IMG/VR virus record: IMGVR_UViG_3300046167_000292
Coordinates: 1 to 28,546 of that record
Direction: 5' to 3' (one strand)
From: a virus
DNA length: 28,546 nucleotides
The notes under the pieces were generated by a model, which saw nothing but the letters and a program-made list of their open reading frames with translations, ran no database searches and was not told where the DNA came from. Position numbers and translations under genes: made by a program. Below, in pieces: positions 3,302-24,075 of this stretch. Position 1 is the first letter of the stretch. Every line of letters starts with the position of its first letter.

Positions 3302-3801
3302 ACAGCACACTAGAACACCAACACAGCCTAAATGGGCTTACGCTAGTAGAGAGTTGGCTAGTAGAAGATGAAACACACGATAAGTCTAGGAAGTATGGCT
3401 TAAACGTGCCTGTGGGTACTTGGATGGGTGTAGTCAAAGTAAACAATGACGAAGTTTGGAATGACTATGTAAAAACAGGTAAAGTAAAAGGTTTCTCAAT
3501 AGAGGGGTACTTCATAGACAAGATGGAAAGACCTAAAGAGCCTTTAAATGACTTTGAAGAAGAAGAAGCAGAGGAGATGCTATCTTATATACGTAGAATT
3601 GTAAGAGATGACAAACGCTATAAAGACGGCAAGAAAGAAGAATTGGAAAGCTACTCTGACTATCCTGATGCAGTAAAAAACAACGCACAAAGAGGCATAG
3701 ACCTAAACAAAGAAATAAACAACAAATGTGCAACTGATGTAGGTAAGATACGAGCGCAACAATTAGCACAAGGTAAACCTATTAGCGAAAACACTATTAA
3801 A
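3302..3801 (+). pseudogene. Partial second copy of the prohead protease gene
   Basis: These 500 bases align to 1945..2444 with no gaps (constant offset 1357). I count about 25 differences (~95% identity); about 23 are synonymous and the other two are I/L and V/I changes. The frame is intact but closed upstream by TAA at 3292..3294, with no ATG, so it lacks the N-terminal third and the C-terminal ~48 residues. It runs in frame into the scaffold gene, which makes an artificially long ORF (3406..4416). The pattern fits a recently captured allele of a sibling phage, or a strain chimera in the assembly, not a decaying duplicate. Confidence 0.85.
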
Positions 3802-5952: not shown

Positions 5953-5963
5953 TATATTTTTTA

Positions 5964-5971
5964 TATATTTG
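5964..5971 (+). promoter_or_regulatory. Host-type -7 box TATATTTG
   Basis: It fits the Bacteroidetes sigma-A -7 consensus TAnnTTTG, but no TTTG lies about 20 bases upstream. If active it would start RNA near 5975 and run into the terminator at 6002..6033, giving a transcript of roughly 60 bases. It could be chance in AT-rich DNA. Confidence 0.3.
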
Positions 5972-6001
5972 CGTAGAGTATAAGTTTTTTTTGATTATGA
6001 T

Positions 6002-6033
6002 AGAGGGGGGTGCATTAGCATCCCTCTTTTTTT
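6002..6033 (+). terminator. Rho-independent terminator after the tail tube gene
   Basis: GAGGG and CCCTC close a stem with TGC/GCA around ATTA, followed by a run of T. It insulates the tail tube unit from the portal operon, whose candidate late promoter starts 23 bases later. Confidence 0.75.
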
Positions 6034-6055
6034 ATTACAAATTCTCACTTTTTAT

Positions 6056-6070
6056 CGTTATACTTATATG
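6056..6070 (+). promoter_or_regulatory. Candidate phage late promoter, copy 2
   Basis: CGTTATACTTATATG is fused to the ATG at 6068. It differs from copy 1 only at the variable eighth base. It stands 23 bases after a terminator, the same arrangement as at 24260. Confidence 0.6.
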
Positions 6071-12487: not shown

Positions 12488-12643
12488 ATGGACTTAAACT
12501 CGTTTAAACTTTACGTATTAAATTTGTCAGCTATTACAGTTAGTACAATGGATATATTAGAAGATAGCCTTAAAATACTTTTATTAGTAGTTACTATTGG
12601 TTATACTGTTCAAAAGTGGTACGAGTTAAAAAAGAAAAAGTGA
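12488..12643 (+). CDS. Small one-helix membrane protein, candidate holin/pinholin
   Basis: 51 residues, with a single hydrophobic helix around residues 24-42 (ILEDSLKILLLVVTIGYT) followed by a basic end WYELKKKK. Size, topology and position right before the M15 peptidase fit a small holin-type or accessory lysis protein. Its stop overlaps GTG 12640 of the peptidase. Confidence 0.55.
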   Translation: MDLNSFKLYVLNLSAITVSTMDILEDSLKILLLVVTIGYTVQKWYELKKKK

Positions 12644-13010
12644 AGTACTTTAATTATAGCGAGTTTGATAGCCCTGATGTTCAAGGTAGTGGTCAGCTTA
12701 TGGACAAGACTTTACTAGAGATGCTAGACGAAGTGAGAGATAAGTTCGACAAACCCATACACATAAATAGTGGATTTAGAACACCTGCACACAACGAAAA
12801 AGTAGGGGTAAAATGCCTGATGCTGAGAAATGGGAAGCAGCCATCTTAAAGGACTTGCAGTAGACATAGCTTGTAAAAAGAGTACAGATAGATTTGAATT
12901 TAATTAACTGCCTTTTAGATGTAGGTTTTAGCAGAATAGGAGTAGGAAATAGTTTTATACACGTTGATATAGACCCTGACAAAGCACAGGAAGTAATTTG
13001 GACATATTGA
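12640..13010 (+). pseudogene. M15 family peptidase (endolysin), frame-broken
   Basis: An M15 D-Ala-D-Ala carboxypeptidase-type cell-wall enzyme. The natural start is probably GTG 12640 (MKYFNYSEFDSPDVQGSG). Motifs: INSGFRTPAHNEKVG, then SSHLKGLAVDIA (zinc His and catalytic Asp region), then FIHVDID (HxD zinc motif). The parts lie in three frames. The first frame ends at TAA 12847..12849; the SSHLKG part is +1 from between about 12811 and 12835; and the RIGVGNSFIHVD part is +1 again after 12901 (GAATTT/AATTAA). All key residues survive in the shifted frames, so recent indels or sequencing errors are more likely than old decay. Confidence 0.7.
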
Positions 13011-13156
13011 GCATAGCAATCATATCTTTATTCCCTACTTCGTTTATAGGTGGTATATCTTACTATCCTAAAAATGCAGATTACCCATTTAATGAACTAA
13101 ACATATATTTGTTTTTGATACAGTTACAATTTAGAACTTATGAGCAAACCATTTAA
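13007..13156 (+). CDS. Small hydrophobic protein, 49 aa
   Basis: TTG start overlapping the peptidase stop; 49 residues with PTSFIGGISYYPKNADYPFN and a hydrophobic NELNIYLFLIQLQFRTYE end. The stop overlaps the holin start by 17 bases. Small proteins of this YYPK-(N)EL-hydrophobic type occur beside lysis genes in other phages, as I recall. No certain function. Confidence 0.4.
   Translation: MSIAIISLFPTSFIGGISYYPKNADYPFNELNIYLFLIQLQFRTYEQTI
13104..13111 (+). promoter_or_regulatory. Host-type -7 box TATATTTG upstream of the holin
   Basis: Fits TAnnTTTG, 28 bases before the holin ATG, but lies inside the small ORF at 13007 and lacks a TTTG -33 box. Low confidence. Confidence 0.25.
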
Positions 13157-13584
13157 AGATACTAAAGTAGGTAAGTTTCTAATAGGCGAGAAAGGTCTGT
13201 TTAAGAATTTAGCCCATACACTGCCCGACAAGGGCTTTTTAGGCGTTTTAAAGAACTTAATAGCTAAAGACAATAGTTTATCCCCATTTGAAAAAGAAAA
13301 GGCGTTAGAACTGCTTAAAATGGATATACTAGAAATGGAGCAGGTTACTGAAAGATGGGATAGCGATATGACATCTGATAGTTGGCTATCCAAAAACACT
13401 AGACCACTAACATTACTTTACTTAACATTTATGACTACTTTGTTTGTTATTTTAGATAGTAGTGATAGCCCTTTTAAAGTAGGAAGTGAATGGGTAGAAC
13501 TTCTTAAAACACTTCTTAGTTACTGTTTATGTTGCATATTTTGGCAGTAGAGGCTTTGAAAAATACAAAAAAATTACTAAATAA
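13140..13584 (+). CDS. Holin, 3TM type, with +1 frame break near the end
   Basis: 136 residues as the frame stands (ends 13550), 147 if a +1 shift after CTT CTT at 13512..13517 is allowed. Amphipathic N-terminal part, then WDSDMTSDSWLSKNTRPLTL, a hydrophobic helix (~89-106) and a second hydrophobic segment. In the +1 frame the second helix becomes VTVYVAYFGSRGFEKYKK, the typical end of the 3TM (GTA-type) holin family; in the zero frame it ends in a Cys-rich LCCIFWQ. The shifted ending is therefore the authentic one. It would permeabilise the inner membrane for the M15 enzyme. Confidence 0.7.
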
Positions 13585-13780
13585 TATATAGTTATATATA
13601 TATATATATAGTTATATATAATATTGATATATAGTATAACAAGTATATAACATATAACTACTATATAACACCTACTATATATAGCATATAACTATAAATA
13701 AAAACTACTATATAGCAGTTAGTATATATGTGTTCAAAACTATATTTTTAGATGTTTAGAAGTAGGCTTATCTTTGGCAT
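13585..13780 (+). other. AT-rich iterated region, candidate replication origin
   Basis: No gene. Extremely AT-rich. TATATAGTTATATATA occurs at 13585..13600 and 13605..13620; CTACTATATA at 13658..13667, 13672..13681 and 13705..13714; CATATAACTA at 13651..13660 and 13685..13694. It separates the late lysis genes from the first early gene. Clustered short repeats plus easily melted DNA fit an origin or a protein-binding regulatory region. No clear DnaA box seen. Confidence 0.45.
13769..13780 (+). promoter_or_regulatory. Early promoter, TATCTTTG box 4 bases before ATG
   Basis: TATCTTTG (13769..13776) matches the Bacteroidetes -7 consensus TAnnTTTG, and ATG 13781 follows after GCAT. The same layout occurs at 14469 and 14609. 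Expected transcription start is at or next to the ATG, so a leaderless mRNA is likely. The -33 position is only T-rich. Confidence 0.6.
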
Positions 13781-13993
13781 ATGATAGAAAACATATTAGC
13801 AGAACAACTAACAGACAATCAGAAGATAGACAAGCTACTAGAATTAGATTGCAACCTATATACAAATCTTGGGAGCGACAGTACAAAGACCGAGAAGCAA
13901 GAAGTAAAGCGTATGTCAAGAAAAATATATAAAGCAATACAGGGTATCAATGAGCCTATTGGTAAGTCTTTATTACAAGCTATGGATAAATGA
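13781..13993 (+). CDS. Early hypothetical protein, 70 aa
   Basis: First gene after the AT-rich block, directly under an early-type promoter. 70 residues, helical, charged, ending KIYKAIQGINEPIGKSLLQAMDK; no membrane segment or motif that I recognise. The stop overlaps the NinG-like start by 4 bases (ATGA), so the two are probably co-translated. Early position suggests a regulatory, takeover or replication-accessory role (inference). Confidence 0.6.
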   Translation: MIENILAEQLTDNQKIDKLLELDCNLYTNLGSDSTKTEKQEVKRMSRKIYKAIQGINEPIGKSLLQAMDK

Positions 13994-14352
13994 CTAGAAG
14001 CAAAATAGTTAAAAAGCTAGATAGTGTGTTCAGCCTATACATCCGCAATAGATTTGCAAACAATGGCAAAGCTGAATGTTTTACTTGTGGTAAAGTAGAT
14101 GATGTAAGTAGATTACACGCAGGACACTTTATGAGCCGTAAACACTATGCAACTAGATGGGATGAGGTAAACGTACAGGTACAATGTCCTAAATGCAATT
14201 TATTTGGTCAAGGAGAACAGTACACCTTTGGGCTTAATTTAGACAAAGAGTACGGAGAAGGTACAGCAGAAAAGTTACAACAAAAAGCTAGGGGTTTAGT
14301 TAAATTGTCAAATGATGACCTAAATGAGTTGATTGAAAAGTTTAAAGTATAA
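13990..14352 (+). CDS. ninG: NinG/Rap-like recombination protein
   Basis: 120 residues. Zinc-type motifs: C30xxC33 (FTCGK), H43xxH46 (RLHAGHF), then C66xxC69 (QCPKCN), with FMSRKHYATRWDEVNVQVQC between. This is the core of lambda NinG (Rap), a protein acting on Holliday junctions in recombination. It is shorter than lambda NinG and lacks its N-terminal part, as is common for the Bacteroidetes phage version. It may help resolve replication and packaging intermediates together with the nucleases at 17817..20267. Confidence 0.75.
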   Translation: MTRSKIVKKLDSVFSLYIRNRFANNGKAECFTCGKVDDVSRLHAGHFMSRKHYATRWDEVNVQVQCPKCNLFGQGEQYTFGLNLDKEYGEGTAEKLQQKARGLVKLSNDDLNELIEKFKV

Positions 14353-14368
14353 CCTGCGCTTGTAGGTT
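14351..14368. terminator. Short hairpin at the end of ninG
   Basis: AACCTGC and GTAGGTT pair (one wobble) around a GCTT loop, overlapping the ninG stop. There is no immediate T run on the + strand, so it is at best a weak terminator. A leftward RNA from the promoter at 14395..14425 would also meet it. Confidence 0.3.
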
Positions 14369-14394
14369 AGTCATAATCTTTGTTTTTGTTAGTA

Positions 14395-14425
14395 CAAATA
14401 TACAGCTTTTATTTTATTAACCAAA
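14395..14425 (-). promoter_or_regulatory. Leftward host-type promoter, TTTG-N19-TATATTTG
   Basis: On the minus strand TTTG (14425..14422), a 19-base spacer and TATATTTG (14402..14395) match both Bacteroidetes sigma-A elements with consensus spacing. It is the best complete promoter I find. Its upstream half, a 20-base string, is repeated at 23210..23229 on the + strand. Predicted start is near 14391, reading leftward across ninG. No minus-strand gene follows, only a 10-codon ORF (14382..14350). Confidence 0.55.
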
Positions 14426-14468
14426 TGTTTATAAAGTTTATTTATGTTTTTTATTAAAATATTTTTTG

Positions 14469-14480
14469 TAGCTTTGGCAT
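14469..14480 (+). promoter_or_regulatory. Early promoter, TAGCTTTG box 4 bases before ATG
   Basis: TAGCTTTG (14469..14476), then GCAT and ATG 14481. Same spacing as at 13769 and 14609. Drives the short terminated unit at 14481..14592. Confidence 0.6.
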
Positions 14481-14540
14481 ATGACATATAACGAGGATTT
14501 ATTACGGCTACGAGAAGCAGAAGCCGAAGCACTTCGTTAG
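14481..14540 (+). pseudogene. Truncated copy of the 14621 gene or leader peptide, 19 aa
   Basis: MTYNEDLLRLREAEAEALR, then TAG. The segment 14447..14531 repeats at 14587..14671 (85 bp, about five mismatches), promoter included. The ORF stops after 19 codons and the transcript would end at the terminator 14562..14592. It is either a decayed duplicate or a genuine short leader/small RNA of about 110 bases sharing its 5' part with the next mRNA. Confidence 0.55.
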
Positions 14541-14561
14541 TTCTCTATATGTTTGTTCGAA

Positions 14562-14592
14562 AAGGGGTTAGTTTTATTACTAGCCCTTTTTT
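14562..14592 (+). terminator. Rho-independent terminator between duplicated early promoters
   Basis: GGGTTAGT pairs with ACTAGCCC (one wobble) around TTTATT and is followed by six T. It ends the short unit that begins at 14480 and lies just before the second promoter copy. Confidence 0.8.
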
Positions 14593-14608: not shown

Positions 14609-14620
14609 TAAGTTTGCCTT
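14609..14620 (+). promoter_or_regulatory. Early promoter, TAAGTTTG box 4 bases before ATG
   Basis: TAAGTTTG (14609..14616), then CCTT and ATG 14621. Second copy of the duplicated promoter; bases around the TTTG differ from copy 1 but the consensus positions and spacing are kept. Likely drives the long early operon. Confidence 0.6.
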
Positions 14621-14752
14621 ATGACATATAATGAGGATTTATTACGGCTACGAGAAGCAGAAGCCGAAGCATTACGAAAAAAAGTAGAAATGCTTGAAGC
14701 AAAAATAGAGTTACTTACACAACAAATAATGACAAATGATATATACGAGTAA
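14621..14752 (+). CDS. Small coiled-coil early protein, 43 aa
   Basis: Leaderless-type start directly after an early promoter. 43 residues: an all-helical Leu/Glu/Arg/Lys heptad pattern across LLRLREAEAEALRKKVEMLE and the following KIELLTQQI, then a short TNDIYE end. Likely dimerises as a coiled coil. It overlaps the next ORF by 17 bases. First gene of the replication operon; function unknown. Confidence 0.5.
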   Translation: MTYNEDLLRLREAEAEALRKKVEMLEAKIELLTQQIMTNDIYE

Positions 14753-14891
14753 AGTAAAAACAGTAGTAAAAGGCGAAAGTTTCAGACTACCTGACGGAGT
14801 TACTATGAATAAATACACAGTAACATTCGCTAACGGACATAACCCTAATGTTTATTCTCCTAAAGAATTGACATTTAGTGAAGGGGGATGA
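14736..14891 (+). CDS. Small early protein, 51 aa
   Basis: 51 residues, with VKGESFRLPDGVTMNKYTVTF and VYSPKELTFSEGG, suggesting a small beta fold. It overlaps the genes on both sides (17 and 4 bases), as in a tightly coupled operon. No family recognised. Confidence 0.5.
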   Translation: MIYTSKVKTVVKGESFRLPDGVTMNKYTVTFANGHNPNVYSPKELTFSEGG

Positions 14892-15124
14892 AGGTTGAGT
14901 ATGATTTAGACCAAAATAAAAACAAGGCTAAAATACTAATGAAAAGCAGCGTAGCACCTGCTCCTAAAAACAACTATTCTAATCCTAAAGATGATGTACA
15001 ACGATACATTATAAGACAAAGCAGCTTAAATAGAGCAACTGACTTGTATGCAGGGAAAGAAATAAATACAACTGAAATAATAAATTTAGCACGTACATTT
15101 GAAAACTACGTGTTTAACGGATAA
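14888..15124 (+). CDS. Conserved replication-operon protein, 78 aa
   Basis: 78 residues. N-terminal charged stretch, then DDVQRYIIRQSSLNRATDLY and IINLARTFENYVFNG. The RQSSLxxA...A..FE pattern recurs, as I recall, in small proteins next to SSB/recombination genes of several phages. Its stop precedes the SSB-like gene by 11 bases. It may be part of the ssDNA-handling set; the biochemical role is unknown. Confidence 0.55.
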   Translation: MKVEYDLDQNKNKAKILMKSSVAPAPKNNYSNPKDDVQRYIIRQSSLNRATDLYAGKEINTTEIINLARTFENYVFNG

Positions 15125-15614: not shown

Positions 15615-15945
15615 ATGGCTTGTGTTTAGTAGTGAGAATGAGCCTTATTCTATTATAAGAAAAATAGTAGAATTTAGAGAGGGCAAACCAATAAACAAAA
15701 TAGAGGAAACACACTACAAGGAGCAAGTAAAGTGGATTAACGAACACTTTAAATTTATTGATGGTTCAAAGCTATACACTTACAAATCATTACTTGATTT
15801 AGCACAGCACGTAAAAAAGGCTTGGGATTATCAGGGTTTTTTATTAGACCCTTACAACTCACTAAACAAAGACAAAGATGTACTAAAAGGTATATCAGGA
15901 CACGAGTACGATTATCAAGCAACAAGCGAGATTAGAATATTCTGA
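15583..15945 (+). CDS. RecA/DnaB-like ATPase, central segment
   Basis: Continues the ATPase: KWLVFSSENEPYSIIRKIVE (the Walker-A-following strand with SSEN), then a helical region and a Walker B-like GFLLDPYNSL, as in phage DnaB-like proteins with DPYN. It stops at TGA 15943 directly after ATSEIRIF. The same frame continues behind the stop with the known C-terminal part. The catalytic middle expected after EIRIF (sensor strand with Asn-His and the ssDNA loop) is missing: an in-frame deletion whose junction codon became the stop. Confidence 0.7.
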   Translation: MTLYAMKHGIKWLVFSSENEPYSIIRKIVEFREGKPINKIEETHYKEQVKWINEHFKFIDGSKLYTYKSLLDLAQHVKKAWDYQGFLLDPYNSLNKDKDVLKGISGHEYDYQATSEIRIF

Positions 15946-22079: not shown

Positions 22080-23208
22080 AGTATACAACCATCTAACCAA
22101 CTCTAATAAGAAGATAACATTAGAAGTAGGTGGAACTAGGAGCGGTAAGACATACAATGTTCTACTGTGGATTATTCTACACTATTGCCAACACAACGAA
22201 AACAAAACGATTACTATATGCCGTAAGACATTCCCTGCTGTACGTGCTACTGTAATGCGAGACTTCCTAGAGATACTCAAACGTATGGACTTATACGATG
22301 AACAGCACCACAATAAGAGCAACCACGAGTATAAGCTAGACAGTAACCTCATAGAGTTTATATCATTAGACCAACCACAAAAGGTAAGAGGACGTAAAAG
22401 AGATTTACTTTTCGCCAATGAGATGAATGAACTGACATTTGAAGATTGGCAGCAGTTGGTATTTAGAACAACAGACAAGATAGTAGGAGACCTTAACCCT
22501 TCTGATGAGTACCATTGGATATGGGAGAAGCTAGAGCAAAGGGAAGATGTAGAAATATACAACACTACCTACCTAGACAATCCATTCCTAGACGATAGCA
22601 TAAGAAGCGAGATAGAACTACTAAAAGACACAGATGAGAACTATTGGAGAATATATGGACTTGGACAAAGAGCAATATCTAAAGCAACTATATTCAAATA
22701 CACGGAGATTGATAGCATACCTGACGATGCACAGCTTGTGGCTTATGGGATGGACTTTGGATTTAACGACCCTACTACACTTGTTGCAACATACAAGAAA
22801 GACCACAACCTATACTTTAAAGAAATGCTATACAGGTCAAAGATGACAACAGAGGACATACACCAATATCTAAAAGGAGTAGAGGTATTAGGTATGACTT
22901 ATGCAGATAGCGCAAGACCTGAAATAATAGAACAGTTGCGTAGATACGGACACAAAGTAATGAAGTCTTATAAAGGTGCTAATTCTGTACTAGCAGGGAT
23001 AGACCTACTTAAAAGGTATAAACTCCACGTAACAAAGGATAGCGAGAATATGATAAAAGAATTCAGAAGCTATAAGTGGAAAGAAGATAGAGCAGGTAGA
23101 ATAACTAACGTACCTGAAGATTTACACAACCACACACTTGATGCAGCTAGGTACTCCTGCTACTCTATATTAAGTAAACCTAACTTTGGTAAGTATTACA
23201 TACATTAG
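22057..23208 (+). CDS. Terminase large subunit
   Basis: 383 residues. Walker A GGTRSGKT (25-32), Walker B LLFANE (117-122), then the RNase H-like nuclease with MDFGFNDP (232-239), ADSARPE (D284) and HTLDAARY (D362). ATPase and nuclease domains of the packaging motor are both complete. TTG 22057 is the only suitable start ahead of Walker A (the previous frame codon is a stop). Somewhat short compared with lambda-type terminases but normal for this group. Ends at a possible promoter region (23210..23251). Confidence 0.9.
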   Translation: MTTIQVNKVYNHLTNSNKKITLEVGGTRSGKTYNVLLWIILHYCQHNENKTITICRKTFPAVRATVMRDFLEILKRMDLYDEQHHNKSNHEYKLDSNLIEFISLDQPQKVRGRKRDLLFANEMNELTFEDWQQLVFRTTDKIVGDLNPSDEYHWIWEKLEQREDVEIYNTTYLDNPFLDDSIRSEIELLKDTDENYWRIYGLGQRAISKATIFKYTEIDSIPDDAQLVAYGMDFGFNDPTTLVATYKKDHNLYFKEMLYRSKMTTEDIHQYLKGVEVLGMTYADSARPEIIEQLRRYGHKVMKSYKGANSVLAGIDLLKRYKLHVTKDSENMIKEFRSYKWKEDRAGRITNVPEDLHNHTLDAARYSCYSILSKPNFGKYYIH

Positions 23209-23219
23209 TTTTATAAACA

Positions 23220-23251
23220 TTTGGTTAATTAAAATATAGTTTATATATTAG
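23220..23251 (+). promoter_or_regulatory. Host-type promoter, TTTG-N20-TATATTAG
   Basis: TTTG (23220..23223), 20 bases, then TATATTAG (one mismatch from TAnnTTTG). The enclosing 20-mer 23210..23229 is the exact reverse complement of 14416..14435. It precedes the small membrane gene cassette by 19 bases. Confidence 0.5.
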
Positions 23252-23253
23252 CA

Positions 23254-23453
23254 CTTTAAAACAAACATTATGAAACGTAAGATAGAAAACTTTATATTTG
23301 ACACAATTATATACGTAGCTGCTTTTGGACTAGTATGCACGTTTTGCCAACTATGCGCACACGCTGATAAATGGATGGGGTTATGAAAGATTTAAAACTT
23401 TTTATAGTGGTTATTCTGACACTAACATTTTTAGTTTGGTCTAAACATTACTT
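23254..23453 (+). repeat. 200-bp direct repeat, copy 1
   Basis: Identical to 23622..23821 apart from three substitutions (ATT/ATA, CTA/TTA, GCA/GCT), all synonymous in the small membrane gene. Spans the leader, the complete 38-aa gene and the first 23 codons of the next gene. Confidence 0.9.
23270..23386 (+). CDS. Small membrane protein, copy 1, 38 aa
   Basis: MKRKIENFIFDTIIYVAAFG followed by LVCTFCQLCAHADKWMGL: basic N-terminus, one hydrophobic helix, three Cys near its end. An almost identical copy lies at 23638..23754 (all three differences silent or outside codon meaning). Stop overlaps the next start (ATGA). Unknown function. Confidence 0.55.
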   Translation: MKRKIENFIFDTIIYVAAFGLVCTFCQLCAHADKWMGL

Positions 23454-23559
23454 TGAAAGCTTACAAGGCAAAGGATTAACAGGAAGACAAATACTTGATG
23501 AAACTGCATTGTTTAGAGAAAGATGGGAAGAAACCAATTACCTAAGGAATAAAAAATAA
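23383..23559 (+). CDS. Small membrane-anchored protein, 58 aa
   Basis: ATG 23383 overlaps the previous stop, a better start than the in-frame ATG at 23371. Residues 4-20 form a hydrophobic helix (LKLFIVVILTLTFLVW), followed by a charged soluble tail with GLTGRQILDETALFRERWEE. Type II anchor topology likely. Its first 23 codons are repeated at 23751. Function unknown. Confidence 0.55.
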   Translation: MKDLKLFIVVILTLTFLVWSKHYFESLQGKGLTGRQILDETALFRERWEETNYLRNKK

Positions 23560-23607
23560 CCACTAACACTTATGGTTTACCTGAAATAAAAACTACATAA
23601 AAAAACA

Positions 23608-23621
23608 GGGGAGCAATCCCC
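23608..23621 (+). terminator. Hairpin before the second repeat copy
   Basis: GGGGA pairs with TCCCC around a GCAA tetraloop (GNRA type). Only three T follow, so it is a weak terminator or an mRNA-stabilising hairpin. It ends the first copy of the cassette. Confidence 0.45.
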
Positions 23622-23821
23622 CTTTAAAACAAACATTATGAAACGTAAGATAGAAAACTTTATATTTGACACAATAATATACGTAGCTGCTTTTGGATTA
23701 GTATGCACGTTTTGCCAACTATGCGCTCACGCTGATAAATGGATGGGGTTATGAAAGATTTAAAACTTTTTATAGTGGTTATTCTGACACTAACATTTTT
23801 AGTTTGGTCTAAACATTACTT
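23622..23821 (+). repeat. 200-bp direct repeat, copy 2
   Basis: Offset 368 from copy 1. Breaks off inside the second gene, where unrelated sequence begins after TTACTT. Confidence 0.9.
23638..23754 (+). CDS. Small membrane protein, copy 2, 38 aa
   Basis: Same protein as at 23270 (differences are synonymous). The retained coding sense suggests either recent duplication or selection on both copies. Stop overlaps the next start as in copy 1. Confidence 0.55.
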   Translation: MKRKIENFIFDTIIYVAAFGLVCTFCQLCAHADKWMGL

Positions 23822-23831
23822 GGGGATATGA
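23751..23831 (+). pseudogene. Truncated copy of the 23383 membrane gene, 26 aa
   Basis: Shares the first 23 codons (through KHY) with 23383, then ends LGI and TGA after the repeat boundary. It keeps the membrane helix but loses the soluble tail. Overlaps the next ORF by 4 bases. Confidence 0.6.
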
Positions 23832-23950
23832 TAGTAGAAATAGGAAACAAACACTTTAGAGATACAGGGGAAACTATGCAAGAGGTATATTGGAATGAAA
23901 CCTTTGAGGAGTGGACACCTGTACTATGGGAGCAAAAGATGGAGATATGA
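23828..23950 (+). CDS. Small acidic protein, 40 aa
   Basis: 40 residues, rich in Glu/Trp (YWNETFEEWTPVLWEQKMEI), soluble. ATG overlaps the previous stop (ATGA) and its stop overlaps the next ATG. Function unknown. Confidence 0.45.
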   Translation: MIVEIGNKHFRDTGETMQEVYWNETFEEWTPVLWEQKMEI

Positions 23951-24075
23951 AAAAGACCAAGAAACAAATAGACGAGAATGTTAGGTTTATACCTTTAGCT
24001 GAATGGCAAGAAACGTATCAATACCACAGAACAAACAAGCGCAGCAGACAGGTAGATGAAAACGGTAAGAGATGA
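23947..24075 (+). CDS. Small basic protein, 42 aa
   Basis: 42 residues, Lys/Arg-rich at both ends with VRFIPLAEWQETYQYH between. May bind nucleic acid (inference). Coupled to neighbours through 4-base overlaps. Confidence 0.45.
   Translation: MKKTKKQIDENVRFIPLAEWQETYQYHRTNKRSRQVDENGKR

Follow-up and report, generated by a model that had tools for sequence, protein, structure and literature searches.

A minus-strand promoter beside ninG in a phage contig is very probably that of a moron whose gene is missing

Our analysis suggests that the lone minus-strand promoter between ninG and the next early gene in the window (the whole stretch of 28,546 nucleotides that was analysed, an IMG/VR virus record) very probably belongs to a moron, i.e. 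an optional cassette that brings a gene together with its promoter, and that this gene is absent here. We base this assignment on the slot being empty in most relatives, on the turnover of the cargo, on the identity of the promoter core, and on the intact cargo found in relatives. What looked like a puzzle, a solitary antisense promoter, would then be an ordinary and testable thing: the promoter left by a swappable accessory gene. The features of the region are the following.

13990..14352, plus strand: ninG/Rap endonuclease gene, upstream neighbour of the slot (phrog_5034, 1.9e-28)
14342..14374, minus strand: residual 10-codon ORF MTNLQAQVIL, standing where relatives have the cargo gene; it shares no more than the initial ATGA with the cargo
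14351..14368, plus strand: hairpin at the ninG 3' end, conserved whether or not the minus promoter is there
14370..14371: junction 1, where the ninG 3' region GGTTAGT is joined directly to the cargo start CATAAT; the cargo body and terminator of relatives are absent
14371..14476, minus strand: segment that aligns collinearly with gene-bearing relatives (identity 99% with L013, 97% with L009)
14375..14390, minus strand: A-rich leader of the cargo gene, a variant of the cassette leader ACAAACATT
14390, minus strand: predicted transcription start, from a -7 box at -12..-5 (PMC9723704, PMC6847099)
14395..14402, minus strand: -7 element TATATTTG, 19 nt from the -33 TTTG (consensus per PMC6847099, PMC9723704)
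14422..14425, minus strand: -33 element TTTG (motif scan and alignment with relatives)
14481..14540, plus strand: truncated copy of the coiled-coil gene, 19 codons long, behind a promoter of its own (TAGCTTTG, 14469-14476)
14536..14537: junction 2, where the first copy of the coiled-coil gene is joined, at codon 18/19, to the simple-allele sequence TTAGTTCTCTATATGTTTGT
14564..14592, plus strand: rho-independent terminator, GGGGTTAGT..ACTAGCCC plus T-run, typical of the allele without minus gene
14621..14752, plus strand: full 43-aa coiled-coil-like gene, with promoter TAAGTTTG at 14609-14616

The original prediction of TTTG-N19-TATATTTG on the minus strand at 14425..14395 corresponds to an exact match in the window. 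The host promoter elements that it named are also there, i.e. the -33 TTTG and the -7 box TAHHTTTG of the Bacteroidota sigma-A/ABfr type, both invariant in six sequences. In primary promoters of Flavobacterium the -7 box spans -12 to -5 and TTTG lies at -33 (PMC9723704, PMC6847099); the refined -7 consensus of Flavobacterium johnsoniae is TAHHTTTG (PMC6847099), which TATATTTG at 14402-14395 fits. The spacing from the -7 box places the expected start at about 14390; the original prediction had 14391. Compared with the primary sigma-A promoters of Flavobacterium (PMC6847099, PMC9723704), the window promoter has the same TTTG and TAHHTTTG elements and an A-rich leader, and the sole difference is the missing gene behind it.

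Taken alone, the motif is unremarkable for such AT-rich DNA, and the pattern is not beyond chance. It is the sole TTTG-N17..23-TAnnTTTG when both strands of the 28.5 kb window are scanned, and at least one TTTG-N19-TAnnTTTG occurs in 24% of the dinucleotide shuffles of the window, a fraction that reaches 82% for TTTG-N17-21-TAnnTTTG; the exact TATATTTG form is present in 2% of them. A scan for sigma-70-type promoters gave no excess over shuffles. Because shuffles yield the pattern often, motif statistics were rejected as proof of a promoter.

We judge the promoter real because its core is conserved in relatives, not because of the motif pattern. The 41-bp core TATAAACATTTGGTTAATAAAATAAAAGCTGTATATTTGTAC is identical in six aligned sequences (the window, L009, L013, L021, L022 and L035), and the leader just 3' of it varies among them by substitutions and indels. 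Over the longer interval 14371-14480, the window is 92-99% identical to the five relatives across 105-109 bp. The collinear part of this interval comprises the cargo start codon, the leader, the minus promoter and the back-to-back plus promoter. A pattern scan with the core motif found six other IMG/VR contigs, the same five and L118, all with an intact cargo gene. This conservation makes it highly probable that 14425..14395 is a genuine minus-strand promoter of host (Bacteroidota) type, and we infer from the alignments that it is active.

The organization of the slot was studied in 80 fetched loci with a NinG relative, among the closest of which the region immediately after ninG was sorted into alleles. 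The slot is empty in 27 relatives, which have neither minus promoter nor minus gene and show the order ninG, hairpin, TTAGTTTCTCTATATGTTTGT, rho-independent terminator and then the promoter of the coiled-coil gene. In L009, L013, L021, L022 and L035 it contains a minus-strand terminator, one or two small genes and then the window's promoter, back to back with the plus promoter of the coiled-coil gene. The cargo encodes a protein of 89 aa, one of 49 aa, or one of 55 aa and then one of 89 aa, and the terminator GAGCCACC...GGTGGC closes these minus genes before ninG. Close relatives thus carry minus-strand genes at the very spot of the window's minus promoter. The claim that the genome has only plus-strand genes agrees with this contig, in which ten of the longer minus-strand ORFs gave no PHROG match. 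The companion claim, that no minus-strand gene follows the promoter, holds solely for this contig, which lacks the gene body found intact in relatives.

Two side observations concern the same region. TTAGTTTCTCTATATGTTTGT after the ninG hairpin (window 14537-14557) is letter-identical in 31 of 36 relatives, across both alleles, and the window copy has one T missing. In a more distant clade (L039, L041, L042), the slot just after ninG holds a different minus-strand ORF of 24 aa, MNEEQYWENLSTHYERFSDYGEDD, with its own promoter and terminator, both differing from those of the window-type cassette.

These loci resemble known morons. The pid moron of P22 is a small opposite-strand gene with its own terminator, at a site that is empty or otherwise occupied in relatives (PMC3573128). 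The related loci share with pid-type loci an opposite-strand small ORFan, a 3' rho-independent terminator and a variable insertion site, and differ from them in being of Bacteroidota host type, with -33/-7 promoters. Among the ninG relatives the site is empty in 27, occupied by this cassette in five (with three cargo sets) and by another cassette in three. From its sequence, the cassette would be transcribed independently of, and opposite to, its neighbours. An intrinsic terminator lies 3' of the cargo in five of the five gene-bearing relatives and is absent from the minus strand of the window. The window thereby departs from pid-type morons, since it keeps only the promoter, the leader and the start codon, the gene body and terminator being gone; with just a 10-codon ORF left, it holds a remnant and not a complete moron.

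We propose that the moron is a small optional cassette with a host-type promoter, an A-rich leader and a terminator, inserted between ninG and the next early gene in the orientation opposite to theirs. From the cassette promoter of related phages, the host vegetative RNA polymerase would transcribe the cassette independently of the phage operon, as far as the terminator before ninG, for the production of one or two small, interchangeable proteins. With the cargo gene and terminator missing, the promoter of the window would be an orphan, followed by a start codon and an ORF of 10 codons, and its RNA, if made, would continue into ninG in antisense as a by-product. A deletion, or a switch of template, from the leader (plus-strand sequence ATAATGTTTGT) to the boundary CTATATGTTTGT, which resembles it, could account for the loss of the cargo, and we infer that recombination between such short similar sequences was responsible.

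Could the promoter have another role, or none? The original prediction had as candidates an antisense regulator of the first early genes, i.e. a dedicated promoter controlling ninG and the first early gene, or a primer or activating transcript for an origin in the AT-rich block. The promoter does face this block and, since the cargo terminator is missing, leftward RNA would meet no recognisable stop as far as 12500: a scan of the minus strand from 12500 to 14395 found no terminator. The hairpin at 14368..14351, suggested as a possible end of a ~40-nt RNA, is a poor candidate, because its stem is weak (5 bp, z = -0.93), no T-run follows it, and it is kept in relatives without the minus promoter; we rejected it as a minus-strand terminator. 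Leftward read-through into ninG is a plausible side effect in the window, where the cargo terminator is missing, but nothing seems to point to a selected role for it. In the 27 relatives that lack the promoter, the AT-rich block (about 80-86% A+T) is retained together with p70, ninG and the plus-strand promoters, so early regulation or replication is unlikely to need a leftward transcript. In promoter-bearing relatives, moreover, a gene and its terminator stand between the promoter and ninG, which argues against an antisense regulator of early genes, and no other cargo-less copy was found in related IMG/VR contigs. A regulatory or priming role thus appears very unlikely, and the link to the origin was rejected because the block is retained without the promoter. 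It is even harder to believe that the motif is a chance AT-rich match devoid of promoter activity. Shuffles often give such a match at the level of the pattern, but the core is identical in six sequences, the cargo gene of gene-bearing relatives starts 19-23 nt after the -7 box, and a sister cassette lies upstream of 15 gene families.

A different matter is whether the orphan arrangement exists in the phage, or is an artefact of metagenome assembly or sequencing that hides an intact minus gene or an empty slot. This explanation concerns the missing gene only, and is compatible with the promoter being that of a moron. At the slot, the window combines pieces of the gene-bearing allele with pieces of the empty allele in one tandem duplication, where the coiled-coil gene starts twice: a 19-codon copy, then the simple-allele sequence with its terminator, then the full gene. 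At junction 1, CATAAT read on the minus strand gives the last letters of the leader and the cargo ATG, and the sequence after the retained ATG is that of ninG, giving MTNLQAQVIL. This junction has no genuine match elsewhere in viral_contigs (the one match, in the 61-kb contig L114, is unrelated sequence), and junction 2 has none in other related IMG/VR contigs. The mixture of both alleles, the lack of either junction in related contigs, and window-only frameshifts plus a 174-bp deletion within 1.6 kb fit an artefact. Yet the junctions share only ~5 bp (TTAGT), below what an assembler jump usually requires, and real mosaics of phage recombination look alike. We therefore regard an artefact as possible, if somewhat improbable. 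The joint was found in a single contig, and several window-only indels lie within the same 1.6 kb of sequence. The orphan may be a real, degenerate variant, or the loss of its gene may be a product of assembly or sequencing.

Relative to L092, L105 and L113, the window has single-base insertions at ~14886, ~14892 and ~15575 and the 174-bp deletion at 15944. They break the gene at 14736-15124 and a DnaB-like helicase gene, the latter being one open frame of 311 codons in L013.

The exchangeable cassette behind the promoter is a more interesting object than the orphan promoter itself. A 78% copy of the minus promoter region directly follows the terminase gene, on the plus strand at 23198-23273, and lies upstream of a plus-strand gene.

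23217..23272, plus strand: sister promoter-leader cassette downstream of the terminase gene, TTTG N20 TATATTAG with leader AAAACAAACATT
23270..23386, plus strand: 38-aa cargo gene (MKRKIENFIFDT...) behind the sister cassette

A pattern scan found the sister version in many contigs, at the matching place after terminase, where it fronts 15 different families of small genes across relatives; the conserved A-rich leader ACAAACATTATG precedes the cargo. Taking both slots together, 24 proteins fall into 17 clusters, one of which is a 15-residue fragment cut by a contig end. The 55-aa cargo family stands behind the cassettes of both the ninG slot and the terminase slot. We consider it an evenly balanced proposition that, in this group of flavophages, the shared promoter-leader cassette is a plug for the exchange of small accessory genes at two or more slots, including the one after terminase (plus strand) and the one between ninG and the coiled-coil gene (minus strand). 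Short homology, in the leader and in the similar boundary after ninG, would serve the swap or loss of cargo, and the window would show the cassette after cargo loss.

The terminase slot itself (23208-24070) is hypervariable: related contigs have the same promoter-leader cassette there, but the small genes that follow it differ. A 200-bp repeat, 99% identical, occupies 23254-23453 and 23622-23821, 368 bp apart; it contains the 38-aa cargo gene twice, the second copy without a promoter.

Conserved sequences in front of unrelated small genes have precedents. PeSLs of T4-type phages were reportedly described by Arbiol in 2010 and by Comeau in 2014. According to PMC4503421, they are conserved promoter cassettes that front small genes in shuffling regions, much as here, and the 17 cargo clusters over two slots likewise put the same cassette before many unrelated genes. 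PeSLs are, however, described as composite motifs of promoter and terminator, whereas the promoter of the present cassette is not fused to a stem-loop terminator, which lies beyond the cargo gene; moreover, they belong to T4-type phages, and the present phage is not T4-like and has a promoter of Bacteroidota type. The SAS of cluster K mycobacteriophages (PMC3203893) is likewise conserved and immediately precedes the start codons of genes from different families, in the non-structural half of the genome. It is a 13-mer with a Shine-Dalgarno-like core 3-7 bp from the start, while the present leader ACAAACATT lacks AGGAG and the conserved unit includes the whole promoter.

The 89-aa cargo family has 29 relatives in IMG/VR, many of them at other places. 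Some members occupy the minus strand of the ninG slot (L119-L122), and others follow ninG and point the same way as it does (L135, L136). Further ones lie near or after the terminase gene (e.g. L129-L131, L138-L141), or between structural genes, at a position equivalent to 5.9-6.05 kb of the window (L125, L142). In the window, the corresponding gap at 5953-6067 contains a terminator and a TATATTTG box; in L125 and L142 it is occupied by the 89-aa cargo gene with its own promoter. AlphaFold predicts one member (L120:2501-2767) to be a small alpha/beta protein (pLDDT 90). The model had no significant match in the PDB, and its sole strong match in BFVD was the viral protein A0A1B1IQJ4, at 38% identity. 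Comparison with isolate phages gave no match for the 89-aa cargo, and no Pfam or PHROG family was assigned to the cargo at a trustworthy score. In this way, one promoter-leader sequence gives access, through a promoter search, to small proteins of uncultured Bacteroidota phages that lack annotation, about 17 families in all. Their genes are natural candidates for a part in host takeover or counter-defence.

As for the host, the terminase and NinG proteins share 35-36% identity with their counterparts in phages of Bacteroides/Phocaeicola, Riemerella and Flavobacterium. When the DNA of the window was compared with isolate phages, the only match was a 71-bp piece of the methyltransferase gene, 94% identical to a Nonlabens phage. 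These sequence matches fit a Bacteroidota host. A search of genome_contigs for a host, with the cassette pattern and the terminase protein, gave no match.

Finally, two observations concern other parts of the window. A 300-bp direct repeat, 95% identical, lies in the structural region (1945-2244 and 3302-3601, 1357 bp apart). In the early genes p70 and coiled-coil (13769-13781, 14469-14481, 14609-14621), exactly 4 nt separate the -7 box from the ATG; this holds for the window and, without exception, for the ~30 relatives in which the promoters are retained. If the -7 box lies at -12..-5, transcription would begin at the A of the ATG, so these early mRNAs are predicted to be leaderless. Leaderless mRNAs are rare in Flavobacterium, at 5.5% in F. 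psychrophilum (PMC9723704).
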